From contig NZ_LDJP01000045.1 of assembly GCF_001431505.1 (NCBI RefSeq), positions 1-64,000 of the forward strand: 64,000 bases of DNA. Direction: 5' to 3'. Every line of letters begins with the position of its first letter. Position 1 is the first letter of the stretch. This stretch comes from Stenotrophomonas daejeonensis (GTDB lineage Bacteria; Pseudomonadota; Gammaproteobacteria; Xanthomonadales; Xanthomonadaceae). This document shows positions 17,464-34,158 of this stretch, one piece after another. The position numbers were made by a program, and so were the translations under genes. Below the pieces are notes generated by a model. It searched no databases, was not told the DNA's origin, and saw nothing but the letters and a program-made list of their open reading frames with translations.

Positions 17464-17465
17464 TA

Positions 17466-17516: not shown

Positions 17517-17547
17517 CGCGTCCCGCATCCTTCAGGGGGAGTTGGAA

Positions 17548-18048: not shown

Positions 18049-18065
18049 CGGCGCGCGATGGCGCG

Positions 18066-18124
18066 GCCTAACAAGTCATTCAAGCCGACGCCGCTTCGCG
18101 GCGCGGCTTAATCAAGCGTTAGCT
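18066..18124 (+). repeat. attC site 5 (59 bp)
   Basis: GCCTAAC (18066-18072) to GTTAGCT (18118-18124) with the CCGCTTCGCGG hairpin. It separates the two membrane-protein cassettes. Confidence 0.9.
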
Positions 18125-18181
18125 GCTTCTGGCTACTGAACCAGGGTTGAGCCGCGTCATTGTCATTCCACAGGGGGGGAT

Positions 18182-18913: not shown

Positions 18914-18920
18914 AGAGCGC

Positions 18921-18970
18921 AGCTAACAATTCATTCAAGCCGACGCCGCTTCGCGGCGCGGCTTAATTCA
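18921..18970 (+). repeat. attC site 6, cut by a second IS1111-type element
   Basis: AGCTAAC (18921-18927) plus the full stem up to TTAATTCAGC, then IS sequence AACTGTATTGAGAAACC. The breakpoint is the same as in attC 4, which shows site-specific insertion. Confidence 0.8.
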
Positions 18971-18971
18971 G

Positions 18972-19301
18972 CAACTGTATTGAGAAACCGTCGCTCAGGC
19001 TGCGGTTAGTCTCTCCTCACGCAGCTCATCGCGTCGCCTGGCATTGACGATTCCCAGCAGCTTGCGCATGTAGGCAACCAGCGCGACCTTGCCCAGTTTC
19101 CCGCGCTCGCGCAGCTGCTGGTATTGCGCCTTCATCAACGGGTCCCAACGCACCGCTGACAGCGTGGCCATATAGAGCGCCACCCGGACCGGTGACCGAC
19201 CTCCCCGGATGCGACGGTGGCGAGAGCCTTGGCCGCTATCCCGATTCATGGGAGCCACACCGACCAGCTTGGCAATCTGGCGGCGGTCGAGATGGCCAAG
19301 T
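18972..19301 (-). pseudogene. IS1111-type transposase C-terminal remnant (second copy)
   Basis: It encodes ...[24 protein letters not shown]... to RRRDELREERLTAA, nearly identical to the C-terminus of the 16763-17371 copy (CAERLAAA there). It is cut at about 19301 by the terminus of an IS3-family element, so the N-terminal two thirds are lost. Confidence 0.85.
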
Positions 19302-19590
19302 TTGTAATGACCCATCGATTCCTGCTCAGGTCATGCGGTTAATGTAGCGGCGTAGGCCGCGTCCGGGGTCATCATCTTCAACGCCTGATGCGGGCGCCGT
19401 TGGTTGTAGAAGGCGATCCAGTCACCGATCACACGCAGGGCGTGCACTTGGCTCTCGAAGCGATGCCGGTGCACGCACTGCTCCTTCAGTGTTCGGATCA
19501 CACGCTCCACCATTCCGTTCTGCTGTGGGCAGTGCGGGGTGATGAACTCCTGCTTTAAACCGTAGCTGATGCGGACTACCGAACCAAGAA
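19302..19590 (-). pseudogene. IS3-family OrfB remnant with IS terminus
   Basis: The minus strand reads SYGLKQEFITPHCPQQNGMVE, then 'RVIRTLKEQCVHRHRFES' and ends PDAAYAATLTA. This is the DDE-domain C-terminus of an IS3-family transposase, including the 'PQQNGMVER' glutamate motif. The IS end (19302-19332) also occurs as a scar at 2705-2736. Beyond about 19590 the transposase frame is lost. Confidence 0.75.
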
Positions 19591-19696
19591 AAATGGCACT
19601 GCCTCGGGCGAGAAAATCGTGGGTACCTCTGGACGCTGACCACCGTCCCGCGTAGGTGTGGCAGCATGGGGTATTGAAATCTTGCTTCAGGCCTTA

Positions 19697-21049
19697 TCAG
19701 ATGTCGATTGTCCGGTGCCACCCCGTGCTCTCACTCGCATAGTCGCCCTCAAGCTCAATCAACTTCAAGGGCACTGCTCCCACACCTAATGCTTTCTCAA
19801 TGGTCAGTTCGCTGCCTTGCTCTGAAAGCAAGTCTCTGAGGCGGGCGAATTCGCCGCACCAGACGCTCTCGATGTCCCGGTCCCGGCCGGGGTCATTGGC
19901 CCTGGACAGCGAGACGGCGCGTACCTGCAGGCGTCCGCTTTCCGAGCGGCCGCCAAGCTCGACGCCATAGCCCGGGGTCGCTGCCTTGCGCAGGACGACA
20001 CTGCCGGCATCGGCCCAGGCCGTCTCCATGCCTTCGCGGACTTCGTAGCCCAGGCTGGCCAGGCCTTCGAGCATGGCCCGTCGCCTGATACCTGCTGCCT
20101 GCTTTCCATTTTCATCGGCGATGGCTTCGCTGCATTGCGTTGATAGCGCGATGGTCTGTTGGATATCCGGCGCTTGTTGGGCCAGGCAATCCGCGATCTG
20201 GATCAGTAGCGGTGAGTTGGCTTGTCCAGGCATTGCCTCCAGCTCGGATGCTAGGTTTCGCAGTGCGAGACGATGTTCACCCAGATCCTTGTGAAATACG
20301 GATGCTGCCGCCAGGTCCAGTACCAGGCTATCGAGCAGCAGTCCGCGTCGTGCTTGTTGCACGTCCTCTTCGATGGCTGCCAAGCGGTGCTGGAAGGGCT
20401 CGGCTACCGCGGCACCGTACAGCGTCTGCAGGCGTGCCAGATAGCCGTCGATGCGTTCCAGGCGTGGTTCGCGAACGGTGTGATCCTCCGCGATCCACTT
20501 GTTTGGGTGATCAGTCTGCAAGGCGCGGGCGAGATCGCGTTGCGCGTCGGTTACCGTTTCGGTATCGGCTCGATTGGCGCTGCTAAGGCGCCCAAAGCCC
20601 TGGGCCAGGATCGCTGCTGGGTCGGCGACCGATCGGCCGGCAACAATCAACTCCAAGGCTTGCACCAACGCCACGTCGGCCTCCGTCGCACCGTCAGGCA
20701 GTGCCTTCAGCAAGGTCGCGGCGTTGGCCCTCAGGTTGCGCTGGGTCGTGCGCAGTTCGGCCGCTTTTGTCACCGCCGCTTCCTGACGTTGCATCAGATC
20801 GGCTTCAATAAAGTTTATTTCCAGCGGTACCTGCTTCTGCAGCAGCCACAACTCATCCTGTACCAACATCTGCTGCAGCTGCACCCGCCGCTCGCGCGTA
20901 GCGTTCAGTATCGCCTCGTCCTCCTGTCCAAGCCGGAGCGATTCTTTGTGCCAGTTGGCGATAGCACGATCCAGTCGGCTCAGGAGCGCTTCGCAGATCG
21001 CCAGGACCTCTTCGCGGGTAGTGAGCCGGACGACTTTAGGACCACTCAT
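19697..21049 (-). CDS. Coiled-coil protein of unknown function, last gene of the defence-like operon
   Basis: A 450-residue protein starting MSGPKVVRLTTREEVLAICE, an N-terminal signature I associate with conserved hypothetical proteins but cannot assign. Residues about 15-110 and 165-310 are long amphipathic helices with heptad character (ICEALLSRLDRAIANWHKES; AAVTKAAELRTTQRNLRANAATLLKAL). The last ~120 residues are more mixed and look globular (VVLRKAATPGYGVELGGRSESGRLQVRAVSLSR). No catalytic motif is seen. Its ATG overlaps the stop of the large helicase gene by 4 bp, so it is translationally coupled and is probably a structural or regulatory partner of that protein. Confidence 0.75.
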   Translation of the reverse strand: MSGPKVVRLTTREEVLAICEALLSRLDRAIANWHKESLRLGQEDEAILNATRERRVQLQQMLVQDELWLLQKQVPLEINFIEADLMQRQEAAVTKAAELRTTQRNLRANAATLLKALPDGATEADVALVQALELIVAGRSVADPAAILAQGFGRLSSANRADTETVTDAQRDLARALQTDHPNKWIAEDHTVREPRLERIDGYLARLQTLYGAAVAEPFQHRLAAIEEDVQQARRGLLLDSLVLDLAAASVFHKDLGEHRLALRNLASELEAMPGQANSPLLIQIADCLAQQAPDIQQTIALSTQCSEAIADENGKQAAGIRRRAMLEGLASLGYEVREGMETAWADAGSVVLRKAATPGYGVELGGRSESGRLQVRAVSLSRANDPGRDRDIESVWCGEFARLRDLLSEQGSELTIEKALGVGAVPLKLIELEGDYASESTGWHRTIDI

Positions 21050-24000
21050 GGCTGTTCCTTGGTGAGCTCGGCTTCCGGCTTCTGCACAACGGCTTGGCTG
21101 CCATCAGTAAGCGCGACGGCTATTGCCTGGCGCAAGCGCAGGCGTTCGTTGTCGCCATCCCCATACCAGCCCAATGACGACACCCGATGGATATGCGGTA
21201 CCGACCGCTGCAGCACCTTGCGGCGCCAGATCTCGCGCGCCCGGGCACGGCGCAGCAGCGGGTGCCGCGGGCTGTCGCATTCAATGCCGATGGCGTACAG
21301 CTGGGTAACCGGATCTTCAATCGCCAGGTCCAGGCCGAAGGTGTCGCCTTCGTCGGCCGCTACCGGCTCCCACCCCAACGAACGGATGTAGGCGGCGACC
21401 GCATTGGTGAAGCCGTCGCCTTGGCGGCGGTGCTCCGCGCGAACTTGGCCGCGGTCGGTGAGCAGCCGTCCCAGCAATGCACGGCTGCCACTGAACTCTC
21501 CCGCAGACAGGGCGCGCGCGTACTCTAGATAGCCTTGCAGATAGTCGCGGGGGCTGGTCGGCGGACGCTGGGTAGTGAGCATGTCGGAGATGTCGGCAAT
21601 CGGCATGGAGGTGATCATCACCACTTTTTCGCGGGCTCGGGTGACCGCCACGTTCAACCGCCGCTCGCCACCGGTTTGGCCCAATACGCCGAAATTGCGA
21701 CGGAAGGTGCCCTGGCCATTGCGCCCGAACGTGGAAGAAAACACGATGATGTCGCGCTCGTCACCCTGTACGTTCTCGACGTTTTTGACGAACACCGCCA
21801 TATCCTCGCCGCCATCCCGGCGCTCACGTTCCTCGGCGAAGGCCATGCGGAAACCATCGTCCAGCGTTGCGCGCTCTTCCATCCGCTCTTCGATCAGGTC
21901 GGCTTGCTTGCGGTTGAAGGTCACCACGCCGACGGATGGGCGCTGTTCCACCGGCGCGCGCCAAAGCTCGGCGAGATAGTCGACCACGCGCTCGGCTTCC
22001 TGCGGGTTGGTTTGTTCCTGGTAGAGTCCATCGACACGAATCAGCTCCAATGGACGCGCCTGCAGAATCCTCGCAGCCGGGTGTCGCACCGGCACGCTGA
22101 GCCGATTGCCGTAGAACGATGCATTGGAGTAACCGATCAGTTCGCGATAGGCGGAACGGTAGTGGATCTGCAGGGTGGTGGTTGGCAGCACGCTGCGCGC
22201 CAGCTGCAACAGGTCCGGGCAGTCCTTGATCTCGCGCCGGTTCCAGGTGTCCTCGAACTGCTCCTGCTCTTCCGGCTCGGCGTCCTCCGTGGGCGTCTCG
22301 CCATCGAACAGTTCAGCTTCATCGCTCTCGATGCGACTGGAGAAGAAGGCCGTCGGCGGCATCTGTTTCTCATCGCCGCTGACGATCATCACCCGTCCAC
22401 GGAACAGCGTGGGCAAGGCGTATTCGACCGGCATCTGCGAGGCTTCGTCGTAGATCACCGTATCAAACAAGCCGGCACGAAGCGGCAGTACGCGGCTGGC
22501 GACGTCCGGGTTCATCAGCCATACCGGACGAAGGTGCATCAGGCCCAAGCCCGCGCCCAGTTCGATGAACTCGCGCAGACGGCGGGAACGGCGACCTGTC
22601 AGTCGGGTTACGTCTTCCCATTGCTTGCGGGTGCCTAGCAGTTGGCTGTCGATGGCAGTACCGAGCATCTCACGGTTGAGTTGACGCATCTGTGCATCCG
22701 CCTGCGCCAGCGCGTCCACCTTGCCCGCTGCTTCGGTCTGGTCCAGCAGCAATGCTGGCTGTGTGCGTTCGATGCGCTGCTTCCATCCCAGTCGCGCTTC
22801 GCGATTGATCAGGTGGCGGACGCTGAGGTCCAGCCGCTCATCGGCGATGCCCTTGAGCTCAGTGACGCGTTCACGCAACAGGGCAAAGAAGGCCAGCTGC
22901 GCAGGCGACAGCTGCTCGGCGCGCACGCGGAACTGCTGATATGCGGCCAGCGTTGGCAAGGCCTGCGTCAGCTCGTCGAGCGTGGCATGGTTGTCATGGC
23001 CTTGCTCGATTGCGCCGCGCAGCTGTGCGACCCAGTCGGCATTGGCCCAGTCGGCCAGTCGCTGCAGACGCTCAAGGCTGCGTTCGCGGGCTGATTGCTG
23101 CGCCAGCGCGGCTTCGGTTTCCGTCAGCATGGCCAGCAGCGCTTGGCGGGTCCCCGAGCGCACCGCCGCTTCCAGTGCCGCAGTCCGTGGCGCCGTAGCG
23201 ATGGATGCGGCGAGCGTTTGCGCGGCGCGGAGTTTGTCGGTGGTATCGGCGACCTGCGCCGAAAGAAGAGGGCCGCTTGCTACATCGGGGAGCGGAAGTT
23301 CCAGCAGCAGCTGCGCAGCAGAGAACGCCGCGCGCAACGGCCGCCAGTACTGTTCGAGTTTCGCTGCAGCAAGCAAGCAGCCGAGCTGCGCCGTGCCTGT
23401 TTTCGTCTCGCCATGATTGGCGAGGAAGGCCGATACGCGACGGCGCCGTAGGTAGTTCAAAGGGCTGATGCGCGCAAGCCAGGAGGTCGCATTCAACAAC
23501 GCGCCAGCCTGACTGGCCAGACGATCCAGGGTTGGCGAGGGCAGGGCAGCCAATGCGGGTGAGAGGAGCGGGGAATGGCTTTGCAATGCAGCGTTGCGCA
23601 GGTCGCGCTGGATCTGGTCCAGCGAGGCGAGCGTGCGTACGCCGATGCCAGTGTCACCGGTTGCAGATGCACGGAACAGCGGCAGCCAGCTAGCCAGGCG
23701 TTGTCGCTGGCCTTCGTCCAGTTCGAGCAGGGTGCGCGCCGGCCCCTGCAGCCACTCGCGATAGGGCGTCGGCTCGGCAACCTCGAAACCCGCCGGATGC
23801 GATTGCAGTATCTCGATCCTGGCGGTCTCGGCTTCGACAAATTGCCGGAAGTCGTGCTGGAAGGCCTGCAAGGTGGAGGCATCAGACGTAAAGACCTGCA
23901 GACGTGCGAGCGGACTTGCTTCGTAATTGGAGGGAAGCCACAGCCGAGCCAGCGGCGCGCAGGCCTCTTCCAGCTGCGCGAGCTCGGTCATATCGATATC

Positions 24001-27000
24001 ACCCAAGCGCTGGCGTAGTGCCGGAAACGCCAGCGTTGCCCCATCCTGTTCCAGTTCAATCAGCTCGCCCAGTAACTGGCGATAGCTCAGCCCGGTGCGT
24101 TCATCAACCTCATGCAGATTGGCGTGGAAGCGGTCCAGCTCGCCCTCCAGCGATTCGATACGGGCGGCAAGCCGCTCGCGTTGCGCCTGCCAGCTGCGTG
24201 AGGTCGGACCGTCAGTGGCAAACAGCGTTTCCAGTTGTTCGCGCACACCGCGGATCACCCGTTCGCGATCGCGATTGACGTCATCAAGCATCACCACGCG
24301 ATTGCCGAGCCCCTCGGCCACCAGCCGTTTGTGCACGACTTCCAGTGCAGCGTGCTTCTGGCAGACGATCAGCAGACTTTTCTGTCGACCGATGGCATCG
24401 GCCACTATGTTGACGATGGTCTGGCTCTTGCCGGTACCGGGCGGGCCTTCGACCAACAGGCCCGGTGTCTGCCGTGCCTGCAAGACGGCGTCCTCCTGCG
24501 AGGGATCACTGGAGGCGGTGAAGAAACGATCCAGTTCGGCCGGTGCCGCGTCCGGGGCTTCCGCCGAGGCGGTGCCCAGGCGCAGCGCGGTTTCCAGACC
24601 GGTGCCGCTGGGCGACAAGGCTTTGAGCTGACGCAGATCCTCACCCAGTGCCTGGCCCATGAAGGTGACGTGGAACAGCACCGCCGCACAGGCCAGCTCG
24701 ACCTCATGCACAGGGATTTCGGTGGAGGCCGGGGGAAGCGCCTCAAGCACCCGCGCACGCGGGCTGGCCAGCACACCGAACGCATCCATCACGTCGGCGG
24801 CCTTCAGCGAAGAACGACCCAATACTTCATCCGCCGTCCTGCGCCAGGCTTTGCAGGCTTCAGCTCCCACCAGGGCTTCCAGGGCCGGATTCAGCCGGAC
24901 TTCCTCGCGCTCACTATCGAAGGCCAGCGCAATCCGCCCACGGTTGCCCAGTTCCATCTGCAGCTTCACTGGCCACAGCAGCAGGGGCGCAATGCGGGTG
25001 CGGGTGTTCTGTGAGTCGCGGATCAGCAGGAAGGGAAAGCCAAGGTGCAGGCCGTCGATGCCGGTGTCACGCTTGTACAGCGAGCTCTGCCGTTGAAGGC
25101 TGTTCAAACGGGCCAGCAACGGCTGGCTGGCCGCCAGCGCTACCGGGTCCAAGTCCACGGCGCGGGCTTGCCGTTGCAGCAGCGCATCAAGCAGTGCAGC
25201 GGCAGGACGACGGGTGGTATCGAGCTCGTGCAGATCGATGCGCGCGGTGGTCTTGCCGATGATCATGCGTACCAATGGGCCGCGCATCACGCTGGTCGTC
25301 ACCTTCTTCTCGAAGAAGTCGAGGATCTGGGTGATGTATTGCTGCTTCTGTGGTTCCAGCCAGTTCTCTGCCGGCACCGCCAGCAACACCAGGGCGTTGG
25401 CCAGCGGCATGCGCCGCTCCAGCCGGAACTGATCAGCCCAGGCATCGGGTTGGCGAAGACCGCAGCGGGCGAAGCCGACGATGCGCTCATCCACGCGCAG
25501 GAACAGCTCCCGCCGTTCAAGCGCCAACAGCGTGCGTGCAACTGCAGGATCGAACTGCAGCACACCGGCCTCGAACGCCAGCAGCTTGGCCTGGTCAATG
25601 ATGGCGTCCACTGAACGGAACTGATGGATGCCCGCGCCAAGCAGGACGATCAGGTCTTCCTCGCCGATCAGCCGGCGTTCGCTCAGCGAGCGGATGCCTG
25701 CGTGCTCGCTATCGGGCAACAGCTGTTGGCGCTCCTGCCACTGCGCTGCCAAGCGGACCCGCGAGGTTGACAGCAGATAGATGCGCAGCTGTGCCTCGTC
25801 CAGCTCGATACCTTGATGGCGGGCGCGCTGGCGCACCTGATCGGCGCGTATCTTCAATCGCCATAGCCAGCTTTCACTGCCCAGGGCTTCCAGCAGATCC
25901 GGTACCGGACCGGTAATCAGCCGGTAGCCTTCCAGCGGATGTTCGAGCAGCCAGCCGGGGGTAACGATCTGTCCCCGATGGATCAGCGGCATGTCCGGGT
26001 TGAGGATCTTCAGCGCAAGCAGAAGACGGAAGTCGTCTTCAAGTTCGACATGCTGTGCGGCATTGCGCAGGCCCGCGATTGACTTGGGCGGAAGACCGAC
26101 CTGCTCGGCCCAGGTCACGATCACACCGCGCAACAGATGGTCCAGTGCCTGCGCCCAGTGCTGCTCTTCTGCGGCGCTCAGTGCGAAGAGCGCCGGTTTG
26201 TGAAAACGTCGTTCGCCCAGCGTGATCGTCGCGCCGCTGGCGGCGTCCTGTTCGGCCTGCGCGCCAGCAGGCGCGGTGACCGGCTCGCCATCCAGCCAGG
26301 CACGTACTTCGGGCCACTGCCAGCGCTGGTTGCGATCACGTGCCAGCAGCCCGCGCAGCAGCAGGTTCAACTGCGGGTCCAGCGCATCCGGTAGCAGCGC
26401 ACCGTTTGCCAGTACGTGGATGAGGTAAGCATTCGGGTTGACCCCGTCAAAGCAGGCGCCTTGGGTCAGCTGTTCCAGCAGGATCATGCCCAGGCTCCAC
26501 CAATCGGAGGCCGCAGCGACACCGCCGGCGATGGCCTCCGGCGCCATGTAGCGGCTGATCTCCAGCGGCGACACGATATCGAGGTCGAACTCGGACAGAC
26601 GCGCCGAGCCGAAGCCGCTGATCACCAGGTCCAGCGGCTCACGGCTGCGCACCAGCAGTGTGGACGGGCGCAGGTCGCGGTGGCGCAACCCGACTTCGCT
26701 GAACGCGTGCAGCGCCTGGCCCAATTCGCGCACCACATGCCGCACGGCATCGAGGTCGTGGATGACGATGCCCAACGAGGCGAGGGTGCCGCCGGTGAGT
26801 TCTTCGGCGACTTCGTAGGCGCGATCGTTCCAACGACCAGTCGCGATGATGTCCGGCACATGCTCGCGGGGCAGCCGGCGCAGCACGCAATAGACCGCCG
26901 GGTCCGGCTCGGCACCGGCGCGATACAAGGTAAGGACCGCTTGCCTGCCGTCGTCGTGCTCGGCGAGGTAGCGTTCGCGCACACCGTCGGTGCGGCTGAT

Positions 27001-27366
27001 CTCGCGAAGCAGACGCCAGCCGTCAATGCGTGTCTCGGCAGCATCATCAGCTACCGTGCTGCCTGCGTCTTCACTTTGAGGTGTCGGCGGCTGCGATGCG
27101 GCGGGCTCACCGCCACACTCCAGGCACATCAGATCGCCGGCCTGCAGCGGGTGGCCGTTAACGCAGTGTAATGCCGGCGCATCGGCTTCGGCACTGGCCG
27201 GAGTGAGGGGAGCGTCGTGGGTAATGACAGGTTGCGGTCGCCAGCCAGCGGCACGGATGGGCTCGCTGGAGAGATCCCAGCTGCAGGCTTGTCCCCCAAC
27301 TACCCCTTCGCAGAAGAGCTCAAGGAGGTCACGTTCGGTGTGGCAATTGGGGCAGAAGCGCATCAT
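21046..27366 (-). CDS. Zinc-ribbon / protein kinase-like / COG1112-type helicase / nuclease fusion (2106 aa)
   Basis: Domains in order: a zinc ribbon (CPNC near residue 5, more Cys by 29); a second Cys cluster (CVNGHPLQAGDLMCLEC, 68-84); a Ser/Thr kinase-like domain (about 115-365) with HRDLRPST near 229 and RYMAPEAI; a helical region; a DUF4011-like segment (about 740-800; 'APLLLWPVKLQ', 'VRLNPALEAL'); an SF1 helicase with Walker A GPPGTGKS near 975, DEAS near 1640 and LNVAVTRAREKV near 1905; and a C-terminal PD-(D/E)xK-like nuclease (FGLDLAI...IGIECDS, about 2000-2080). The kinase looks degenerate: Thr replaces the metal-binding Asn, and GFG replaces DFG. A long insert (about 1050-1600) separates helicase motifs. 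It overlaps both neighbours by 4 bp. Kinase plus COG1112 helicase recalls Mokosh, but the nuclease type and partners differ. A defence role is inferred. Confidence 0.85.
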   Translation of the reverse strand: MMRFCPNCHTERDLLELFCEGVVGGQACSWDLSSEPIRAAGWRPQPVITHDAPLTPASAEADAPALHCVNGHPLQAGDLMCLECGGEPAASQPPTPQSEDAGSTVADDAAETRIDGWRLLREISRTDGVRERYLAEHDDGRQAVLTLYRAGAEPDPAVYCVLRRLPREHVPDIIATGRWNDRAYEVAEELTGGTLASLGIVIHDLDAVRHVVRELGQALHAFSEVGLRHRDLRPSTLLVRSREPLDLVISGFGSARLSEFDLDIVSPLEISRYMAPEAIAGGVAAASDWWSLGMILLEQLTQGACFDGVNPNAYLIHVLANGALLPDALDPQLNLLLRGLLARDRNQRWQWPEVRAWLDGEPVTAPAGAQAEQDAASGATITLGERRFHKPALFALSAAEEQHWAQALDHLLRGVIVTWAEQVGLPPKSIAGLRNAAQHVELEDDFRLLLALKILNPDMPLIHRGQIVTPGWLLEHPLEGYRLITGPVPDLLEALGSESWLWRLKIRADQVRQRARHQGIELDEAQLRIYLLSTSRVRLAAQWQERQQLLPDSEHAGIRSLSERRLIGEEDLIVLLGAGIHQFRSVDAIIDQAKLLAFEAGVLQFDPAVARTLLALERRELFLRVDERIVGFARCGLRQPDAWADQFRLERRMPLANALVLLAVPAENWLEPQKQQYITQILDFFEKKVTTSVMRGPLVRMIIGKTTARIDLHELDTTRRPAAALLDALLQRQARAVDLDPVALAASQPLLARLNSLQRQSSLYKRDTGIDGLHLGFPFLLIRDSQNTRTRIAPLLLWPVKLQMELGNRGRIALAFDSEREEVRLNPALEALVGAEACKAWRRTADEVLGRSSLKAADVMDAFGVLASPRARVLEALPPASTEIPVHEVELACAAVLFHVTFMGQALGEDLRQLKALSPSGTGLETALRLGTASAEAPDAAPAELDRFFTASSDPSQEDAVLQARQTPGLLVEGPPGTGKSQTIVNIVADAIGRQKSLLIVCQKHAALEVVHKRLVAEGLGNRVVMLDDVNRDRERVIRGVREQLETLFATDGPTSRSWQAQRERLAARIESLEGELDRFHANLHEVDERTGLSYRQLLGELIELEQDGATLAFPALRQRLGDIDMTELAQLEEACAPLARLWLPSNYEASPLARLQVFTSDASTLQAFQHDFRQFVEAETARIEILQSHPAGFEVAEPTPYREWLQGPARTLLELDEGQRQRLASWLPLFRASATGDTGIGVRTLASLDQIQRDLRNAALQSHSPLLSPALAALPSPTLDRLASQAGALLNATSWLARISPLNYLRRRRVSAFLANHGETKTGTAQLGCLLAAAKLEQYWRPLRAAFSAAQLLLELPLPDVASGPLLSAQVADTTDKLRAAQTLAASIATAPRTAALEAAVRSGTRQALLAMLTETEAALAQQSARERSLERLQRLADWANADWVAQLRGAIEQGHDNHATLDELTQALPTLAAYQQFRVRAEQLSPAQLAFFALLRERVTELKGIADERLDLSVRHLINREARLGWKQRIERTQPALLLDQTEAAGKVDALAQADAQMRQLNREMLGTAIDSQLLGTRKQWEDVTRLTGRRSRRLREFIELGAGLGLMHLRPVWLMNPDVASRVLPLRAGLFDTVIYDEASQMPVEYALPTLFRGRVMIVSGDEKQMPPTAFFSSRIESDEAELFDGETPTEDAEPEEQEQFEDTWNRREIKDCPDLLQLARSVLPTTTLQIHYRSAYRELIGYSNASFYGNRLSVPVRHPAARILQARPLELIRVDGLYQEQTNPQEAERVVDYLAELWRAPVEQRPSVGVVTFNRKQADLIEERMEERATLDDGFRMAFAEERERRDGGEDMAVFVKNVENVQGDERDIIVFSSTFGRNGQGTFRRNFGVLGQTGGERRLNVAVTRAREKVVMITSMPIADISDMLTTQRPPTSPRDYLQGYLEYARALSAGEFSGSRALLGRLLTDRGQVRAEHRRQGDGFTNAVAAYIRSLGWEPVAADEGDTFGLDLAIEDPVTQLYAIGIECDSPRHPLLRRARAREIWRRKVLQRSVPHIHRVSSLGWYGDGDNERLRLRQAIAVALTDGSQAVVQKPEAELTKEQP

Positions 27367-28034
27367 TTGCGGAGGATCTCGTAAGGGCCGCGCAATGCGG
27401 TATCAGCGCTGACCTGCAGCTGGTGGCCCTGCTCGCGCAGCAATGCGCGCAGGCGCAGTAGATCGTCGCGGCGTGGGATGCCGGCCATCCACACGCTGCC
27501 GTCTTCGTCGAGCATCAGGTCCAGCGCTTTGTCTTCAGGGCGCAGTGGTCGCTCGAAGCCTGAGAAGCGCGCGCGGCCAACCGTTGTAAGCAGATGCAGA
27601 CGCTGGTTGTCGCTGCCGCGTAGGGCGACGGATTGCGGCAGCGCCTGCTCGTAGGGATCGGAGATCAATGCATCGATCAGCCCTTCGGCAACGGCAAGAA
27701 CCGGTGCAAGGTACTCCAGCGGATAACCGCTATAGACCAGGATGTCGTGCTGCCCGAGCTGACGCAGCGCCCGCAGCAATTCGAGCAGTGCCTCGGGCTG
27801 GTCGAACGGTTCACCGCCTGAAATGGTGATGCCATCTGCTTCCGTCAACCAAGGCTGGATCTGCGTGAGCAAGCTCGCGATGGTCGCGAGGTGGCGACCT
27901 GCTCCCCAGGTATCGGCGGAGATACAGCCTGGGCAGCGGATGCTGCAACCCTGGAACCAGATGCCAAGGCGCCGCCCTGGCCCCAAGGTGGTCACCGGGA
28001 AGTGCACGCGTGACAAGTCAAGCACTGTGCTCAA
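27363..28034 (-). CDS. Small radical-SAM (4Fe-4S single-cluster) protein
   Basis: A 223-residue protein. The cluster motif is GCSIRCPGC (CxxxCxxC) at about residues 30-37, followed by the SAM-binding GGEP (TISGGEPFDQ, near 74). The size and the opening 'VHFPVTTLGPGRRLGIWFQGC' match NrdG/activating-enzyme-like single-cluster proteins that form a 5'-deoxyadenosyl radical. No nrdD or pyruvate formate-lyase partner is nearby, so a standard glycyl-radical role is not supported. Its ATG overlaps the end of the ClpB-like gene and its end overlaps the start of the kinase-helicase gene, each by 4 bp, so it is an integral part of this operon. It could modify an operon product or a nucleotide; its substrate is unknown. 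Confidence 0.85.
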   Translation of the reverse strand: MSTVLDLSRVHFPVTTLGPGRRLGIWFQGCSIRCPGCISADTWGAGRHLATIASLLTQIQPWLTEADGITISGGEPFDQPEALLELLRALRQLGQHDILVYSGYPLEYLAPVLAVAEGLIDALISDPYEQALPQSVALRGSDNQRLHLLTTVGRARFSGFERPLRPEDKALDLMLDEDGSVWMAGIPRRDDLLRLRALLREQGHQLQVSADTALRGPYEILRK

Positions 28035-29875
28035 CGCGGCACCAGTTGCAGTCCCGCGCTCGATAGATCTTCCACTTCAAAGCGCTGGCCCGGCTGCGCG
28101 TCCTGGTCGAACAACGCACGCGCCAGCGGATTGATGAAGTGGGCTTCGAGCTGATTGCGGATACCGCGGCCACCATTGGACAGATCGCTCAGGCACAAGC
28201 TGCGCAGCGCAGCACGCGCGGGTTCGGCCAGTTCCACCTGCAGCGACTGCTCGCCCAGGTCGGCAAGCGTGGCATCCACCATTTGCGCGAAAATCTGTGC
28301 GGCCACATCCTCGCGGATGAAGTCGAAGACAATGATGTTCTCGCCGATGCGGTTGAGGATCTCCGGCCGATTCAGCACCAGCTTGAAATGGCGTTCGATC
28401 TCGCTCTCCACCTTGCGCTGCACAGTATCGAACGCATCAGTGGGCATGACGTTGGCAACGCGCTCGCCGTTTTCGTCCTGGCGATAGATGCCCAGGTTCG
28501 ATGTGAATACGATCAGCGCCTCGGAGAAGTAGACTCGGTCACCGCGGCCCGAGGTCAGGACGCCGTCGTCCAGGATCTGGAGGAACTTGTCGAGGATCCG
28601 CGGGTGGGCTTTCTCGATTTCGTCGAATAGCACCACGCTGAAGGGCTTTTCGCGGATGGCATTGGTGAGTTCGCCGCCAACGTCGTAGCCAACGTAGCCT
28701 GGAGGGGCACCGATCAATCGCTGATCGGAATGTTCGGCACTGAATTCGGACATGTCGAAACGGATATAGGCGTTGTCATCGCCAAACAGCAGGCTGGTGA
28801 CGGTTTTCGCTAACTCGGTCTTGCCGACACCGGTCGGGCCGGCAAGGAAGGCCACGCCGCGCGGGCGGTTGCCCTTGCGGCTGGCACCGACGCCGGTCAT
28901 GGCGCGTTTGACGATGTCCAGCATGTGCGTAACCGCATGGGTCTGGCCCTTGACCCTGCGGCTGATGAAGTCGTCAGCCTCGCGGATCCGGCGACGGTCA
29001 ATCTTCAGCCAGGGATCCTCGGTCACGCCGACCTTGTAACGACGCACTGCATCGGAAATGCGCGCCATGGGCACCCCTTCGACACGCGCCAACTGGGCGA
29101 TCGCGTTGAGGTCCAGCAACAGCAACCCCTCGGTGCTTTCGATGAAGGCATCGGCGGCCATCTGCAGCGCTTCCGCGCTGGCCTCACGGCCACCGTCCAG
29201 GCCGCGCAGCAGGCTTGAGGCAATCGCCCGACGCGCGGGCAGGTCGGGTTTGGATACCGGGATATGCCGCAGCCGGGGGTTGTCGACCAGCAGCCAGTCC
29301 GGCAGGTCACCTTCCTTGTGGACGACCCAAATCACAGTATTGAAGAAGGGTTTGCGGGCCTCGCCGGCGGGCCGCGCCCGGGCGCTGTGGGAAAGCACCA
29401 ACGCGCGAGTGAAAAGCTGGTGTTCGGCTGGGGCCAAGCTATCGTTGCGCACGACCAACCGGGAGGCGAAATCGACGATCAGCGCGATGGGCTCGCCGTT
29501 GCGGTCAACAATTCGTGGCAGAGTCGTGCTCAGCAGGTCGGGGCCGGCGGCCGCTACACCTTCTACCGGGGTCATCCCCAGTTCGCGGAGCAAGGCGTCC
29601 CCTGCGTCAGGGGCACCGGCGTCATCGCTACCGGGGCGGCCAAGCACCCTGAACCCCGTCAATGGGTCCCATCCGACAACCTGGCTGAAGCCGGCTTCCA
29701 GCATCGCGTCGCGCAGGTTCACACTGAAGGTCTGCGGCGTCAGTACGCCCGGCGAAACCTCGCTGACCTGCAGATCGCCGACGTTTCCGGAGAGAACGAA
29801 CTGGCTCTTCAGTGGCAGGAACCGGACAAGATCCCGAAGCCAGCGCGGCTTTTGAAAGGCAGCTGAAGATGACAT
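28031..29875 (-). CDS. ClpB/ClpA-like AAA+ ATPase with a degenerate first module
   Basis: The 614-residue product ends in a typical Clp/Hsp100 D2 module: Walker A GPTGVGKT near residue 346, pore loop PPGYVGYDVGG near 395, Walker B VVLFDEIEKAHP near 415, sensor 1 LIVFTSNLG, arginine finger RPEILNRIG, and a sensor-2 region GGRGIRNQLEAHFINPLARALF. The first 300 residues look like a second AAA module without a Walker A (ALIVDFASRLVV in place of Walker B; PDLPARRAIASSLLRG). It has no Clp N-domain repeats and no coiled-coil M-domain. It probably unfolds or remodels a protein using ATP. First gene of the tightly coupled four-gene block. Confidence 0.88.
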   Translation of the reverse strand: MSSSAAFQKPRWLRDLVRFLPLKSQFVLSGNVGDLQVSEVSPGVLTPQTFSVNLRDAMLEAGFSQVVGWDPLTGFRVLGRPGSDDAGAPDAGDALLRELGMTPVEGVAAAGPDLLSTTLPRIVDRNGEPIALIVDFASRLVVRNDSLAPAEHQLFTRALVLSHSARARPAGEARKPFFNTVIWVVHKEGDLPDWLLVDNPRLRHIPVSKPDLPARRAIASSLLRGLDGGREASAEALQMAADAFIESTEGLLLLDLNAIAQLARVEGVPMARISDAVRRYKVGVTEDPWLKIDRRRIREADDFISRRVKGQTHAVTHMLDIVKRAMTGVGASRKGNRPRGVAFLAGPTGVGKTELAKTVTSLLFGDDNAYIRFDMSEFSAEHSDQRLIGAPPGYVGYDVGGELTNAIREKPFSVVLFDEIEKAHPRILDKFLQILDDGVLTSGRGDRVYFSEALIVFTSNLGIYRQDENGERVANVMPTDAFDTVQRKVESEIERHFKLVLNRPEILNRIGENIIVFDFIREDVAAQIFAQMVDATLADLGEQSLQVELAEPARAALRSLCLSDLSNGGRGIRNQLEAHFINPLARALFDQDAQPGQRFEVEDLSSAGLQLVPR

Positions 29876-30224
29876 GTACGAAACCCTTCCCTAGGCGATT
29901 TGTCCATAGGATAGCTGTATCGGGAATTGGCTCCCAAACATCTGCCGTTGGCTGGGAGTCCGGCGCGTCAGGTCAGATACGAGGCAGGGACTTTCAATCG
30001 CCACACATAAATCTGACTAGCCTGATCACACAAGAAGCCATTTCTGGCTCGGTGCAGCTGCGTTCGCGCCGTTGTGCTTCTTCAATGGCAACGCATGGGC
30101 GCTGCTAGCGTTCCCGGTGTGGTGCCTGATCATCTGGATCTGCGTGTGCCCAGGACGCGGTGGGCGTTCTATAGCTATTACGTTGCCCATATCGGGCTGA
30201 TGGCAATATTTACGTGATACGTCA
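29876..30224. other. Leader/promoter region of the ClpB-like operon
   Basis: No gene is recognised in these 350 bases. Any promoter for the minus-strand operon must lie here or further upstream beyond the IS elements. On the minus strand near 30230-30200, TGACGTATCACGTAAATATT contains a short GACGTATCACGT inverted motif. No clear -35/-10 pair was found. Confidence 0.35.
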
Positions 30225-30379
30225 CTAAATGAGCCAGGGCGATTCAAGGCACTCAGGTCAAGTGCTTCAACGAAAGCATCGACCACCCGCACCGGATTGT
30301 CTTCGTGGACGTAATCTTCGAGCCGATCAGGCAACAAAAGCTCCTGTGACCGATCAACGCCATCGACGAATCGCTTCAT
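30225..30379 (-). pseudogene. IS1182-family transposase N-terminal remnant
   Basis: From ATG 30379 the frame reads MKRFVDGVDRSQELLLPDRL, then 'EDYVHEDNPVRVVDAFVEALDLSAL', the conserved N-terminus of IS1182-like transposases. Homology stops after about 50 codons and the rest of the frame is unrelated. Confidence 0.8.
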
Positions 30380-30585
30380 GGTCAGCACCAACCGAGTGGT
30401 GCTGAGATATTGCCAGTGGCGCAGGGTTTTTCACACAGCTTCGGACGGTAGCGGGTATCGGCGGGGTAGGGGATTAGGGAGATTTATCGGGGGTAGGGTA
30501 GGCCCCGATTGCGACCGGTAATCCCCCCGCAGGTTAGCTGACGCCAGAAGTGGAATTTTCTCGTACGCTTTCCCGAGGAGGTTCC

Positions 30586-30852
30586 ATGAAGAAGTCCCGC
30601 TTCACCGATAGCCAGATCATCGCCGTGCTCAAGCAGGCCGAGGCCGGCACGCCCGTTCCGGAGTTGCGCCGCGAGCACGGCATCAGCTGCGCCACCTTCT
30701 ACAAGTGGCGCAGCAAGTTCGGCGGCATGGACGCATCGCTGATGTCCCAGCTCAAGGAGCTGCAGGACGAGAACCGGCGCCTGAAGAAGATGTATGCCGA
30801 GGCCCAGCTCAGCGCCGACCTGCTGAAGGAGGCGATGTCAAAAAAATGGTGA
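30586..30852 (+). CDS. IS3-family transposase OrfA
   Basis: An 88-residue protein starting [21 protein letters not shown] with the HTH_Tnp_1 domain ([24 protein letters not shown]) and a leucine-zipper tail ([20 protein letters not shown]). GAGGTTCC before the ATG at 30586 supplies the ribosome binding site. Seven As at 30840-30846, just before the stop, are the usual slippery site for the -1 frameshift that makes the OrfAB transposase. Confidence 0.92.
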
Positions 30853-31675
30853 GGCCATCTCAACGCCGGGAGATGGCCCGATGGGCGGTGGACAGTGGGC
30901 TATCGAGCATCCGGCACGCCTGCCAGACTTTCGCGGTGAGACAGACCTGCTACCGCTACCAGGCCAAGGCGAGCGAGGAGAATGCTCGGATCGCCGACTG
31001 GCTGGTGCGATTGACGACTGCCTATCGCGACTGGGGTTTCGGCCTGTGCTTCCTGCATCTGCGCAACGTCAAAGGCTTTGGCTGGAACCACAAGCGGGTC
31101 TATCGCATCTACCGGGAGCTGGAGTTGAACCTGCGGATCAAGCCGAAGAAGCGCCTGGTACGCGAACGCCCGGAGCCACTGGCGGTGCCGGAGGCGATCA
31201 ACCAGGTCTGGTCAATGGACTTCATGCACGACCAGCTCAGCGACGGATGCAGCTTCCGCCTGTTCAACGTGCTGGACGATTTCAATCACCAAGGGCTGGG
31301 CGTCGAGGTGGATCTGTCACTGCCGTCGGCCCGAGTCATCCGTGCACTGGAGCAGATCATCGAATGGCGGGGCAGGCCGCGGGTGATCCGTTGCGACAAC
31401 GGCCCTGAATACATCAGTGGCGTGCTGCTGGCATGGGCCGAGCAACAAGGTATCCGCATCGAGCACATCCAGCCCGGCAAACCACAGCAGAACGCCTATG
31501 TCGAACGCTACAACCGAACCGTACGTGTTACGCCTGGCTGGCCCGAACCCTGTTCGACTCGATCGAGCAGGTACAGGACAAGGCCACCCGTTGGCTATGG
31601 ACTTACAACCACGAGCGCCCGAACATGGCGCTCGGCGGCATCACGCCCATGCAGAAACTGGCACTTGCCGCTTAG
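30838..31675 (+). pseudogene. IS3-family transposase OrfB, frameshifted
   Basis: The DDE domain is intact for about 230 codons (NQVWSMDFMHDQLSDGCSFR; VIRCDNGPEYISG; QPGKPQQNAYVERYNRTV). At about 31520 the frame shifts; the C-terminus (YAWLARTLFDSIEQVQDKAT... to MQKLALAA) continues in another frame to 31675. A one-base loss or two-base gain near 31520-31525 would explain this. It is inactive unless the break is a sequencing error. Confidence 0.85.
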
Positions 31676-31714
31676 CTCCACTTTTGGAGACCGCTAAAAG
31701 CGGGGGGATTACCG

Positions 31715-31930
31715 GGGGATTACCGACCCAAAGCGGAAATCGCCCACTCGTCTCGGACAAACAGGCGCGGGGGAACTTTGTTGCGCGCTATTACGCCTTT
31801 GGCGCGACGACTGGTGCAGTGAACAGCTGGCTTACAGGCCAGCAATTGCTAACCCCTGCGACATCGATCGATGTCACTTTTGCTGGATCGAGGGTGAGTT
31901 CGGCTGATCCTGCGCAAGCACGCCGCGCGC
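31715..31930. other. Junction with an unidentified gene fragment
   Basis: The plus strand reads ARGNFVARYYAFGATTGAVN, then 'SWLTGQQLLTPATSIDVTFAGS', protein-like but unassigned. The RGNFVA start also appears on the minus strand near 7470-7450, so two parts of the island share a short homologous fragment. Confidence 0.3.
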
Positions 31931-32770
31931 CTAGTCGTGCAGCCAGTCGACCTTTTGGTCGATGTCAGCGGAAGGATGTGGACCAGCGTAGAGCAGGAAG
32001 AGCCGGAACTGCTCATTTCGATCAAGATGTTGAAAGTAGATTCGAGCGGCGGCGGTTTCGCTAGTGCCGTCACCTTCTTTGAGATGCAGGTTGGAGTCAA
32101 ACCGCTCCAACTGCTTGACGCCTTTCATCAAGCGGATGCAGGTGCTGATGCCGCCAGAGTGGGCCACCCCGATACGCTTGTCGCGGCAGTAGTCTTCCAG
32201 CGTCATTCCGAGACGCCCCTTCTTTCTGCAGAACTTGTCTAACATCTCTGCCGAGCGCTTCAAGAACGGATGCCGCGAGGTATGCACCTCATCGCAGCGA
32301 TCCAGTGCAGCGCCAACGATAATGTAATCGGCCAGCTTTTCGGCCGAGCGTCGAAAACGCTCAGCTGGAGAAGCGGTGACCTGCCAGCCCAGCTCTTGGA
32401 ACAGGGCCAAGCGTACGTCGTTGGTAAAATCGTCCTCGGCGCGTTGCCCCACCAGCCGTGGCGGCCAGTCGCCTTGCCCCAACTGCGGGCGGATCACCTG
32501 GGCGCCGTTTGCAGCTAGCAGTTCCAGCACATCGTTCATGCCTTCCGGCCAACCCACGTAAGGCAGCGCGACCACGGTCAGCGAGGTCCAGTCGTGTACA
32601 TCGGCGAAGCGTTCCAGATCGCCAATGGCCTGCTCAGAGGGCGGATTGAAGATGTATCGATAGTTCGATTTGACTACTAGGCACAGCCCAGCCTCTTCCT
32701 GCCGGCGTCCGGCTTCGGCGAGGAAGGGCTTTTGCAATGTGTTGGGCAGTCCAATGACAAACGTTGCCAT
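31931..32770 (-). CDS. Hypothetical protein, second gene of the upstream pair
   Basis: A 279-residue soluble protein that is not recognised. The N-terminal part (MATFVIGLPNTLQKPFLAEA; LCLVVKSNYRYIFNPPSEQAI) alternates strand and helix. The middle has several charged helices and a cluster of Cys and His (DRCDEVHTSRHP, DKFCRKKG, DYCRDKRIGVAHSGGISTC). The C-terminal 45 residues (AARIYFQHLDRNEQFRLFLLYAGPHPSADID) resemble in outline the strand-rich end of RelE/ParE-like or small nuclease folds, but this is only an impression. It lies 15 bp after the LOTUS-like gene on the same strand, and probably belonged to one operon with the ClpB-like block before IS insertion. Confidence 0.7.
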   Translation of the reverse strand: MATFVIGLPNTLQKPFLAEAGRRQEEAGLCLVVKSNYRYIFNPPSEQAIGDLERFADVHDWTSLTVVALPYVGWPEGMNDVLELLAANGAQVIRPQLGQGDWPPRLVGQRAEDDFTNDVRLALFQELGWQVTASPAERFRRSAEKLADYIIVGAALDRCDEVHTSRHPFLKRSAEMLDKFCRKKGRLGMTLEDYCRDKRIGVAHSGGISTCIRLMKGVKQLERFDSNLHLKEGDGTSETAAARIYFQHLDRNEQFRLFLLYAGPHPSADIDQKVDWLHD

Positions 32771-32785
32771 CCTTGGCTCACTCCC

Positions 32786-33646
32786 TTACCGGCGTGCACT
32801 CACCATGATTATGGACGCCATCAGCGGAATCAGCGTGTCGGCGATCTCCTGATCGGTCAGCGACTCGATGAGTTTGAGGGCGCGCTGCTTGGGGCTTAGC
32901 GCCGCTGCATCGGTGAGCGACGCAGTAGAGACGGGCGGATGCGCGTGGCGCGTCTCGAACGATGGAAGCAGCATCGATACGTCCACTCCAGCGCGTTGCG
33001 CCCATTGGCTCATCACCTCGAACATCTTGCCGGTGCGGAACTGGGTCCATTGCTTGCCGGCCGCGCCCAACGCTTTGGTGAATTCCACATTCACCGCGGT
33101 GCGATAGGGCTGCGCGATCATCGGATAGTCGGCTGCCACAAGGGTAGACGCCTGGGCGAGGAACTCCTGCATCCAAGCGGTCTGTTGGGTGCCAGGCACC
33201 GGCTCAATCTTCACCCAATCTGCTACCGGAGTCAGGCCAACGGCCGCACCCAGGTCGGTCTGTTGGAAATGCTTGACCGCGCCAGTCTTGCGATTGAAAT
33301 AGCGCAGGCGCTGCGGATCGGGATTGGAGAAGGCAATCCACACGTCTTCGCGCGCCGCTGACATTGCCCGGTGCTCGCCACGTACCGCCACGGGCTGTGC
33401 CGCGGCTGCCGCAAGCGAGAGCACTTCCATATCGCCGCCGGGGCGCACACGCATTTCGAGCACGTCGGGAAATTGCTCGAGAAAGGCGCGGAAGCGCGGG
33501 AAACCCAGCTCGACGTAACTGAAGGTACCCAGGCCGCGTTGCTCGCCCAGGTCCACCAAGCGCTGCCGCAGTCGGGCGGCGGGCTCCACTGACTGCTGCT
33601 TCAGCAGCTCCTGCAGCAGAGGTTTCCAGGCAGAGACATCTTTCAC
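32786..33646 (-). CDS. Protein with N-terminal OST-HTH/LOTUS-like domain
   Basis: A 286-residue protein. Residues about 5-75 (LLQELLKQQSVEPAARLRQR, then LVDLGEQRGLGTFSYVELGFPRFRAFLEQFPDVLEMRV) fit the OST-HTH/LOTUS pattern: 'LLxxLLxxxSVxPAARLGxxL...dFxYxxxGFxxFxxFLexxpdxvxv'. LOTUS domains bind RNA, including G-rich structures. The middle part (VWIAFSNPDPQRLRYFNRKTGAV; VADWVKIEPVPGTQQTAWMQEFL) is unassigned, and the end has a hydrophobic stretch (DTLIPLMASIIMVSARR). The start is GTG 33646 after AAGGA with 7-base spacing. It heads the minus-strand gene series. The domain call is by eye. Confidence 0.65.
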   Translation of the reverse strand: MKDVSAWKPLLQELLKQQSVEPAARLRQRLVDLGEQRGLGTFSYVELGFPRFRAFLEQFPDVLEMRVRPGGDMEVLSLAAAAAQPVAVRGEHRAMSAAREDVWIAFSNPDPQRLRYFNRKTGAVKHFQQTDLGAAVGLTPVADWVKIEPVPGTQQTAWMQEFLAQASTLVAADYPMIAQPYRTAVNVEFTKALGAAGKQWTQFRTGKMFEVMSQWAQRAGVDVSMLLPSFETRHAHPPVSTASLTDAAALSPKQRALKLIESLTDQEIADTLIPLMASIIMVSARR

Positions 33647-33673
33647 GCCAAATTCCTTGTCGGTCGTCGTAAC

Positions 33674-33706
33674 GAAAAAGCCGTTACTAATAGTAACGGC
33701 TTTTTC
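33674..33706 (-). terminator. Perfect 33-bp hairpin in the 5' leader: attenuator-like
   Basis: GAAAAAGCCGTTACTA-A-TAGTAACGGCTTTTTC is a perfect inverted repeat with a GC core and T-run on either strand, so it is a bidirectional intrinsic terminator. It lies 27 bp upstream of the GTG start at 33646, inside the leader of the minus-strand genes. There it either shields them from outside transcription or acts as an attenuator. Confidence 0.75.
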
Positions 33707-34107
33707 GGGTAATCAAATTGTCTTGCTAATGCTAAGTTCCAACCCGTTATGACGTCGTCCGGACGAGAGAACTTAGCAGCACTCTTCCGGCCCATGGGCG
33801 CCATAAAAGTTCCATCCATGCAGCATCGATCGATTCGGTGCACTGATGGGCAACCCCGGCCAGTGATGCATTCACGTAGCCGAGCCGTGACAGTATCAGG
33901 CGCTGCGCTTGGTCGTGTCAAATCTGCGAGTCCCGGCGGTAGGTCGGCGTTTCAACTCGTGAGTTCACTCCTGAATAGATTCATGAATGGCGTACGCCTC
34001 CCACGCTTTGAGCGCTCCTGCTCCCGTGGCGTCACAGGGTCATGAACCACGTGCTAGCGGGGGGTGAACTACCATGAAGCTGACGTCTATTGCATACATG
34101 CATTGTT
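33707..34107. other. Divergent intergenic region between the two defence loci
   Basis: It separates divergently transcribed genes. It holds an inverted repeat TGCTAAGTT (33730-33738) / AACTTAGCA (33770-33778) with an inner CGTCCGGACG palindrome. No gene with family features is seen. Promoters for both directions are expected here. Confidence 0.45.
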
Positions 34108-34138
34108 TTATGCATTAATATCGATCGTAGATGCATAA
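34108..34138 (+). promoter_or_regulatory. Operator-like inverted repeat upstream of ietA
   Basis: TTATGCAT (34108-34115) and ATGCATAA (34131-34138) form an inverted repeat 20 bp upstream of the ATG at 34159. A further ACATGCAT lies at 34096-34103. IetA carries its own C-terminal helix-turn-helix, making autoregulation plausible. Confidence 0.5.
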
Positions 34139-34158
34139 ATGTGGAAATACAGGCATTC

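Follow-up and report, generated by a model that had tools for sequence, protein, structure and literature searches.

A conserved four-gene unit joining an Hsp100-like ATPase, a radical-SAM protein and a pseudokinase-helicase-nuclease fusion in Stenotrophomonas daejeonensis: a candidate conflict system

Results

Four genes form the conserved unit

We analysed a 64,000-nucleotide stretch of Stenotrophomonas daejeonensis DNA (contig NZ_LDJP01000045.1, positions 1 to 64,000; hereafter the window), in which a first-pass annotation had proposed a six-gene defence-type system on the minus strand. All six open reading frames (ORFs) are present, together with the 4-bp overlaps described at the three junctions of the last four genes and the 15-bp gap between the first two. 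The conserved unit consists of the last four genes (19697-29875), which encode an AAA+ ATPase, a radical S-adenosylmethionine (SAM) protein, a 2106-aa fusion protein and a coiled-coil protein, and it is preceded by a short leader that is probably the promoter region of the operon:

28031..29875, minus strand: gene 1, tandem AAA+ protein, 614 aa
27363..28034, minus strand: gene 2, NrdG/pyruvate-formate-lyase-activase-like radical-SAM protein, 223 aa
21046..27366, minus strand: gene 3, fusion protein, 2106 aa, 80 full-length relatives
19697..21049, minus strand: gene 4, coiled-coil protein, 450 aa
29876..29957, minus strand: leader upstream of gene 1, reaching to the end of DNA homology with Stenotrophomonas terrae

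A genome collection of 84,980 species was scanned with an alignment of three big proteins, as we call the gene 3 product and its relatives, and 425 relatives were found, the best 80 of which, all matching over essentially full length, were used. The AAA+ and radical-SAM genes lie upstream of the big gene in 78 of these 80 loci and the coiled-coil gene lies downstream in 78. Three loci are incomplete: L060, where the contig begins at the big gene, L092, where it stops there, and L116 (Saezia sanguinis), discussed below. There is no fifth conserved neighbour, the largest cluster of flanking genes being present in 8 of 77 loci. The 4-bp overlap at the junction of the big and coiled-coil genes recurs in 67 of the 75 relatives whose MSGPK start (the N-terminus of gene 4) can be read, so that the overlap pattern is not due to chance. 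DNA homology with S. terrae (91% identity) runs from 19749 to 29957 and extends no more than 82 bp upstream of gene 1. The four genes are also found together in 8 plasmid records with a near-full-length big gene, 1 from Caballeronia and 7 from Rhizobium. Plasmids of Microvirga (L036, 12085-15383) and Roseomonas (L037, 988-3692) retain no more of the big gene than its 3' part, together with the coiled-coil gene, beside transposase genes; these fragments are decayed copies of the operon.

Family alignments, window included and short or partial ORFs excluded, contained 76 coiled-coil, 79 radical-SAM, 78 AAA+ and 81 big proteins. The pairwise-distance matrices of the four proteins correlate at 0.87-0.94 (74 rows), and dN/dS against S. 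terrae is about 0.08 for the AAA+ gene, 0.12 for the radical-SAM gene, 0.12 for the big gene and 0.25 for the coiled-coil gene. Occurrence is patchy: the N-domain of the AAA+ protein, in all variants of the locus, was found in 8 of 349 genomes of the phylum and in 8 of 91 of the own genus (own genome included in each), and in the genus of P. otitidis only in P. otitidis itself (1 of 18 genomes).

An Hsp100-like ATPase and an activase-like radical-SAM protein

The ClpB-like character proposed for the 614-aa protein is backed by Pfam (AAA_2, 156.5 bits) and NCBIfam. Residues about 290-602 correspond to a ClpB-D2-like ATPase with intact motifs, its Walker residues K352/T353 and D418/E419 being kept in 78 of 78 proteins. 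Residues 1-265 form a degenerate AAA domain that has no P-loop and has weak sequence likeness to the paraplegin/VCP AAA domain (E 0.0028). The AlphaFold2 model (mean pLDDT 79, pTM 0.60) matches chains of ClpC, ClpA and ClpB over the length of both AAA domains (TM-scores 0.40-0.47), and gene 1 can be read as encoding an Hsp100-like unfoldase of tandem build whose first domain is dead.

The 223-aa protein had been called a radical-SAM protein, and Pfam (Fer4_12, 79.5 bits) and NCBIfam agree, placing it near NrdG and the pyruvate-formate-lyase (PFL) activase. It has the radical-SAM fold of these activases and their CxxxCxxC motif (C30, C34 and C37, each present in 79 of 79 proteins), and its nearest solved structure is the PFL-activating enzyme (PDB, 7e-10). 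In contrast to NrdG and PflA themselves, it falls below the model cut-offs (NrdG 77.8 bits, equivalog cut-off 126.1; PFLA 60.3 bits, cut-off 231.75), and because the loci have no recurrent fifth neighbour, no conserved gene for a glycyl-radical enzyme appears to lie alongside, the neighbours themselves not being typed by family. Nor is the protein of viperin type: the viperin (pVip) match reaches 15.5 bits over residues 28-104, lower than those to NrdG and PFLA.

The fusion protein carries a conserved pseudokinase

The following regions were recognised in gene 3:

27112..27354, minus strand: two zinc-ribbon-like Cys clusters, residues 5-85, recognised by eye, no Pfam match
26287..27018, minus strand: pseudokinase, residues about 117-360 (Pkinase, 56.9 bits)
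24874..25128, minus strand: DUF4011, residues 747-831 (40.9 bits, cut-off 22.2)
21601..24537, minus strand: superfamily 1 (SF1), SMUBP2-like helicase, residues about 944-1922 (AAA_11, AAA_12; SMUBP-2 in PDB)
21121..21411, minus strand: nuclease of the Vsr-like restriction endonuclease (REase) type (MTES_1575), residues 1986-2082 (60.1 bits, cut-off 38.2)

The Cys clusters are almost invariant (C5, C8, C19 and C28 in 81 of 81 proteins; C68, C81 and C84 in 80 of 81), as are the helicase residues K980, D1640, E1641 and R1910 (81/81) and the nuclease residues D2013, E2029, H2035 (81/81) and D2031 (80/81). The first-pass description of a kinase/helicase/nuclease fusion stands for its domain content (Pkinase, DUF4011, AAA_11/AAA_12, MTES_1575), except that the kinase is a conserved pseudokinase that has lost catalysis. 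An active kinase was rejected. The residue register was set by alignment with four intact-motif kinases of related loci, and in this register the position of the beta3 lysine (146) is Thr in 74 proteins, Ser in 3, Val in 3 and Glu in 1, never Lys (n=81), and the position of the DFG aspartate (251) is Gly in 71, Ser in 5, Glu in 2 and Ala in 1, with Asp in just 2. The HRD aspartate is retained in 76 of 81. Fusions of an SF1 helicase with a Vsr-REase nuclease (MTES_1575) are already described in excerpts of PMC3710099.

A coiled-coil protein with a conserved N-terminus

Gene 4 is the least conserved member of the unit (mean pairwise identity 0.38, vs 0.55-0.67 for the other three) and had no family match in Pfam, NCBIfam or PADLOC searches. 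Its MSGPK N-terminus is nevertheless present in 75 of 78 relatives, without counting L051, whose coiled-coil match is split into two ORFs. The AlphaFold2 model (pLDDT 91, pTM 0.83) has long helices, a C-terminal alpha/beta region and an N-terminal strand (residues 2-10), and Foldseek returned nothing with E <= 0.001. The alpha/beta region aligns with the KA1 domain of Chk1 (Z 8.0, rmsd 2.9, 89 residues), with a designed helical protein ranking first at 8.1; Z values of this size are common, and a KA1-like fold is a lead only. Several fold matches start at residue 3 and reach about residue 418, aligning just 88-94 residues, which suggests that the modelled N-terminal strand belongs to the C-terminal domain. 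Since this strand seems to be part of that domain, structure may explain why MSGPK is conserved.

MSGPK recurs in other AAA+/radical-SAM loci (Aristaeella and G199, with MSGTK in G021), and a glycine beside a serine is a feature of glycyl-radical sites. The idea that this N-terminus is the substrate of the radical-SAM protein is weakened, as L109 and L126 have MSSS, the variant B proteins of L027 and L151 (see below) have no such motif, and the conservation may have the structural cause given above.

The AAA+ and radical-SAM genes have other partners elsewhere

Relatives of genes 1 and 2 occur with different sets of genes. In variant B (Moellerella, Polaromonas, Acinetobacter, Photobacterium and Leisingera) they accompany an SF1-type AAA helicase, a PIN protein and a hypothetical protein; in Moellerella the helicase and PIN assignments were confirmed by Pfam, and the helicase matches Mokosh MkoA at 340 bits. 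The second AAA+ copy of genome G625 has this layout as judged by gene size. None of 5426 E. coli genomes had at least 80% of the variant B AAA+/radical-SAM DNA, and the matches listed were Clp ATPases. Variant C (Aristaeella, Bacillota) comprises a DUF4011 helicase, two kinases, an MSGPK protein, a protein with zinc ribbon and FHA domain, the radical-SAM and AAA+ proteins and a PP2C-like phosphatase whose match lies below the Pfam cut-off. Variant D (G281, G199) has a coiled-coil-like protein, the AAA+ and radical-SAM proteins, a zinc-ribbon/FHA protein and a kinase, with no helicase seen.

Lys, HxD Asp and DFG motif are all present in the four kinases from variants C and D, which align with the pseudokinase region of gene 3 and about 80-100 residues beyond it. 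Because an intact-motif kinase and, as a protein of its own, a zinc-ribbon/FHA protein are retained in these related loci, the pseudokinase looks like a remnant of an active kinase, the direction of change being deduced. Likewise, the zinc-ribbon and kinase parts found in the phosphosignalling variants appear to be joined in the N-terminal half of gene 3, a fusion in which the FHA domain and catalysis would have been lost.

Three loci, L148 (2988-11699), L038 (3328-14153) and L026 (3170-21032), combine AAA+ and radical-SAM genes with intact-motif kinases and zinc-ribbon/FHA proteins, and L026 adds a PP2C-like phosphatase; such loci are possibly a separate phosphosignalling system. Plasmids of Rhodococcus (L033, 4252-7989) and Paenibacillus (L034, 9676-12543) bear a row of AAA ATPase, DUF2997 and NrdG-like radical-SAM genes, with DUF1257 in L034. 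These rows are further cases of an AAA protein adjoining an NrdG-like radical-SAM protein.

Comparison with known systems

The first-pass annotation had found no named system with this gene set. This holds for the models and literature covered: PADLOC models, like those of NCBIfam, match just pieces of the set, and no name for it was found in the available parts of the open-licence PMC literature, a name elsewhere being possible. One close likeness in make-up is to Mokosh, a kinase-helicase system (MkoA/MkoB, MkoC) that features a PLD nuclease. The MkoA profile PDLC03920 matches the helicase end of the big protein (162.3 bits, best stretch residues 1633-1924). A related locus has an intact-motif kinase that also matches this profile (positions 7-272), as does the variant B helicase mentioned above. 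Here, in contrast, the kinase is dead, AAA+, radical-SAM and coiled-coil genes accompany the big protein, and none of the six proteins has a PLD nuclease match (E <= 0.01), MTES_1575 being found instead.

Other profiles cover the helicase-nuclease half. The DUF4011/SF1 helicase families Hhe and ProA both resemble this half but score well under their cut-offs, Hhe with 310.7 bits of 2000 (best stretch only 1322-2074) and ProA with 512 bits of 1500 (best stretch only 939-2099). The best PADLOC match, PDC-S37 (485 bits), is covered over profile positions 290-1353 of 1550 by residues 949-2098; its best stretch stops short of the part with Cys clusters and pseudokinase, and its name alone is the basis for regarding it as a single-gene system. 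The ClpB-type ATPase core is shared with Dodola DolB and with PDC-M37B (60-97 bits), over residues 282-462 only. Dodola is a pair of DolB and DolA, and no DolA is among the matches listed for any of the six, the listing for the big protein comprising 25 of 26 families. MADS (mad6, mad8) and PD-T4-6 were set aside, as just a kinase or helicase part matches and their other parts were not seen. We rate the gene system as new, its effector half as related to a known kind, and its function as predicted.

PA2725-PA2728 of P. aeruginosa may be this operon, PA2725 being a probable chaperone and PA2726 a probable radical-activating enzyme. In the accessible parts of the open-licence PMC literature no study of PA2725-PA2728 was found. 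Excerpts of PMC10250203 describe a DUF4011 gene that flanks the defence hotspot cDHS1 on its right side in every P. aeruginosa isolate, where it marks the hotspot edge only. The list of flank genes given there fits genes 4-3-2 of the operon, a likeness drawn from description and not from sequence. The vWA-MoxR and FtsH ternary systems, as far as excerpts of PMC7159879 describe them, have no likeness in gene content.

The two upstream genes are unrelated neighbours

Upstream of the unit lie the following features, none of which belongs to it:

32786-33646, minus strand: gene for a protein with a weak LOTUS match, 286 aa
31931-32770, minus strand: gene for a 279-aa protein
30586..31697 (approximate ends), plus strand: IS3-family transposase genes between the two blocks (rve domain in the ORF at 30705-31697; start read from the sequence)

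The proposal that insertion sequence (IS) elements had split a single operon is correct as to the IS3 element, whose transposase is confirmed by the rve domain. A remnant lies at 30026-30391, for which the IS1182 label has no Pfam match. The LOTUS-like label of the 286-aa protein has a corresponding OST-HTH/LOTUS match, which is below the cut-off (17.6 of 23.8 bits), and the sole match of the 279-aa protein, DUF7267, is also sub-threshold (19.2 bits, cut-off 27).

A single six-gene system beginning with these two genes would fit their common strand with the others, the 15-bp spacing of the pair and the IS3 insertion between the blocks. Against it, recurrence beside homologs of the 2106-aa protein, a check suggested with the first-pass annotation, is found for the four genes and for neither upstream gene, the LOTUS and 279-aa proteins being absent from all 80 orthologous loci, in which some 6.5 kb of DNA beyond gene 1 on its upstream side was covered where the contig allows. 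Neither has a match among 72,556 plasmid records, nor does the LOTUS protein have one in a further 228 genomes of the class. Because of their absence from the 80 loci and because the S. terrae homology ends so close to gene 1, the six-gene operon is unsupported; we rejected it as highly improbable. The LOTUS and 279-aa genes are unrelated neighbours of the four-gene unit.

The unit lies in an island next to a defence system

The unit is located within a genomic island of 38.8 kb:

2475..41325, no strand: genomic island with 50-bp direct repeats at both ends, a perfect repeat of the tRNA-Val 3' end (2475-2524, 41276-41325)

The tRNA-Val that ARAGORN places at 41246 has only its 3' part in common with the tRNA at 2450. 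Two recombinases of the phage-integrase family lie at the right end, a tyrosine integrase at 39987-41123 and a second recombinase at 38385-39395. The neighbouring IetAS system that had been named is indeed present at 34090-37760 (IetA 508.7 bits, IetS 926.5 bits). A fragment at 37757-38173 corresponds to the C-terminal part of PD-T7-5 (PADLOC profile) and one at 3768-4325 to the C-terminal part of SoFic, which suggests decayed defence genes.

The flanks of 16 relatives matched 132 PADLOC families, vs 39 for control regions on the same contigs (118 vs 110 ORFs, E <= 1e-10). Here 16 of 20 locus pairs were scanned (L105, L108, L114 and L118 left out), the ORFs came from a mechanical selection that includes spurious ones, and several families may match one protein, members not being named per family, hence without a count per locus. 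Among the best 25 of the 132 flank families are Gabija GajA (1.8e-222), GajB (1.1e-128) and Wadjet JetA (1.1e-119); among the best 25 of the 39 control families the strongest is MkoA (7.5e-49). The most frequent match in both sets, mad3 (4 flank and 3 control members), was taken as noise.

Discussion

We lean towards the reading that the four genes form a self-contained conflict system, most likely directed against phages or plasmids. Of the earlier defence-type claim, the conserved multigene unit with defence-type effector domains beside IetAS stands, and the defence function stays an inference. The four-gene synteny in the 80 loci and the 8 plasmid records, the lack of a fifth conserved neighbour, the catalytic motifs kept everywhere except in the kinase, the dN/dS values, the co-varying distances and the patchy occurrence argue for such a system, as far as sequences can. 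The IetAS island, the PD-T7-5-like fragment and the Gabija and Wadjet genes in the flanks of relatives are suggestive in the same direction. By analogy, a make-up of kinase and SF1 helicase is also seen in the MkoA profile of Mokosh, and the sharing of AAA+/radical-SAM genes with helicase-PIN and kinase-FHA variants would be consistent with a conflict role.

In the mechanism that we propose, the Cys clusters, the pseudokinase and the coiled-coil protein would act as a module for sensing and holding. The NrdG-like radical-SAM enzyme might make or undo a radical-dependent modification on a partner protein, whereby the complex would be licensed, and the Hsp100-like AAA+ protein would spend ATP to remodel or unfold a partner within the complex. 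Once released, the SF1 helicase would travel along nucleic acid that is foreign or damaged, which the Vsr-like nuclease would cut. The specific radical-modification step is speculative, and we think it rather unlikely to be right as stated.

Several observations weigh against a conflict system. In Saezia sanguinis (L116) a full-length, diverged big protein (end branch 1.07) occurs without the other three genes: its gene sits among other genes, and the AAA+ N-domain has no match in that genome. Of the 8 plasmid records, 4 have a big-gene match that falls into 2-3 pieces, and some plasmid copies may be broken. The tree of the big protein needs 29 changes of family label, close to the minimum of 27 (shuffled mean 52.4). 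The S. rhizophila protein is placed inside a Pseudomonas group and that of a Simkania metagenome bin beside Tatlockia, possibly a binning error. The tree points to mostly slow inheritance with loss and some transfer, and to a turnover slower than that of a typical defence gene. Among viral contigs, scanning for a pattern found a single weak match to the kinase region, and tblastn of the AAA+ N-domain gave no match in phages. The enrichment of defence genes in the flanks is modest, lacks per-locus counts and is suggestive only.

The same family-tracking tree, together with the purifying selection on the genes, would suit a stress or repair machine. In this reading the helicase-nuclease and the AAA+ protein would remove nucleoprotein complexes that are damaged or have stalled, with the radical-SAM cluster sensing redox state or SAM. 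Vsr, moreover, acts in mismatch repair. The purifying selection is that given by the dN/dS values above. If the cDHS1 flank gene belongs to the same operon, its presence in every P. aeruginosa isolate, as excerpts of PMC10250203 have it, also fits a housekeeping role and counts against a conflict system. However, the AAA+ N-domain is missing from 83 of 91 genomes of the own genus and from 341 of 349 of the phylum, the operon occurs on plasmids and in an integrase-bearing island with defence genes as neighbours, and AAA+/radical-SAM genes also accompany other effectors such as a PIN nuclease; we consider a stress or repair role an alternative of low probability, to be taken seriously all the same. 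The integrase of the island and the copies on rhizobial and Caballeronia plasmids could instead indicate a module for maintenance of, or competition between, integrative elements and megaplasmids, not serving host immunity. Large contigs (up to 2.6 Mb) carry many of the 80 loci, whose neighbours vary, and such a module seems quite improbable.

The conflict-system reading can be extended to a new class of modular systems. Its core would be an Hsp100-type AAA+ protein, a radical-SAM protein resembling glycyl-radical activases and a coiled-coil adaptor, and its input either kinase/FHA proteins (with a PP2C-like phosphatase at one locus) or a frozen pseudokinase. The radical-SAM protein would arm a partner by a radical-made modification, the AAA+ protein would unfold it, and a helicase-nuclease, a PIN nuclease or another effector would be released. 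We hold this extension to be doubtful, its probability being lowered by five loci with the AAA+ N-domain and no radical-SAM match in the flanking DNA examined (L039, L040, L041, L149 and L150), which likewise count against a conflict system built on this pair. Of these, L040 has its start within the AAA+ gene, L041 has an AAA+ gene split in two, and L149 and L150 each comprise an entire contig, of 10.3 and 8.4 kb. A distance of about 9 kb separates the AAA+ gene from the radical-SAM gene in Geminocystis (L032). These five loci and the Geminocystis spacing speak against an invariant AAA+/radical-SAM core; the pairing is recurrent, not universal.

If a conflict role is correct, this operon, which occurs in many proteobacterial families and possibly borders cDHS1, would be an immune system so far unrecognised, and the coupling of protein-radical chemistry to an AAA+ unfoldase would amount to a new switch for a nuclease. 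Loci with intact-motif kinase and FHA proteins, set beside those with a dead kinase fused to the effector, offer a natural series for the evolution of a pseudokinase switch. Even if the role is one in stress or repair, four strictly linked proteins of unassigned function are worth solving.

Other genes of the island

Two further groups of genes were noted in the same island. At 14066-16201 an aadA-type aminoglycoside adenylyltransferase gene, a small multidrug-resistance (SMR) gene and a pterin-binding (dihydropteroate-synthase, sul-type) gene are consecutive, a row that presumably resembles the 3' segment of a class 1 integron. ORFs at 7612-12830, recognised by eye from their translations, resemble an imuA-imuB-dnaE2 mutagenesis cassette.

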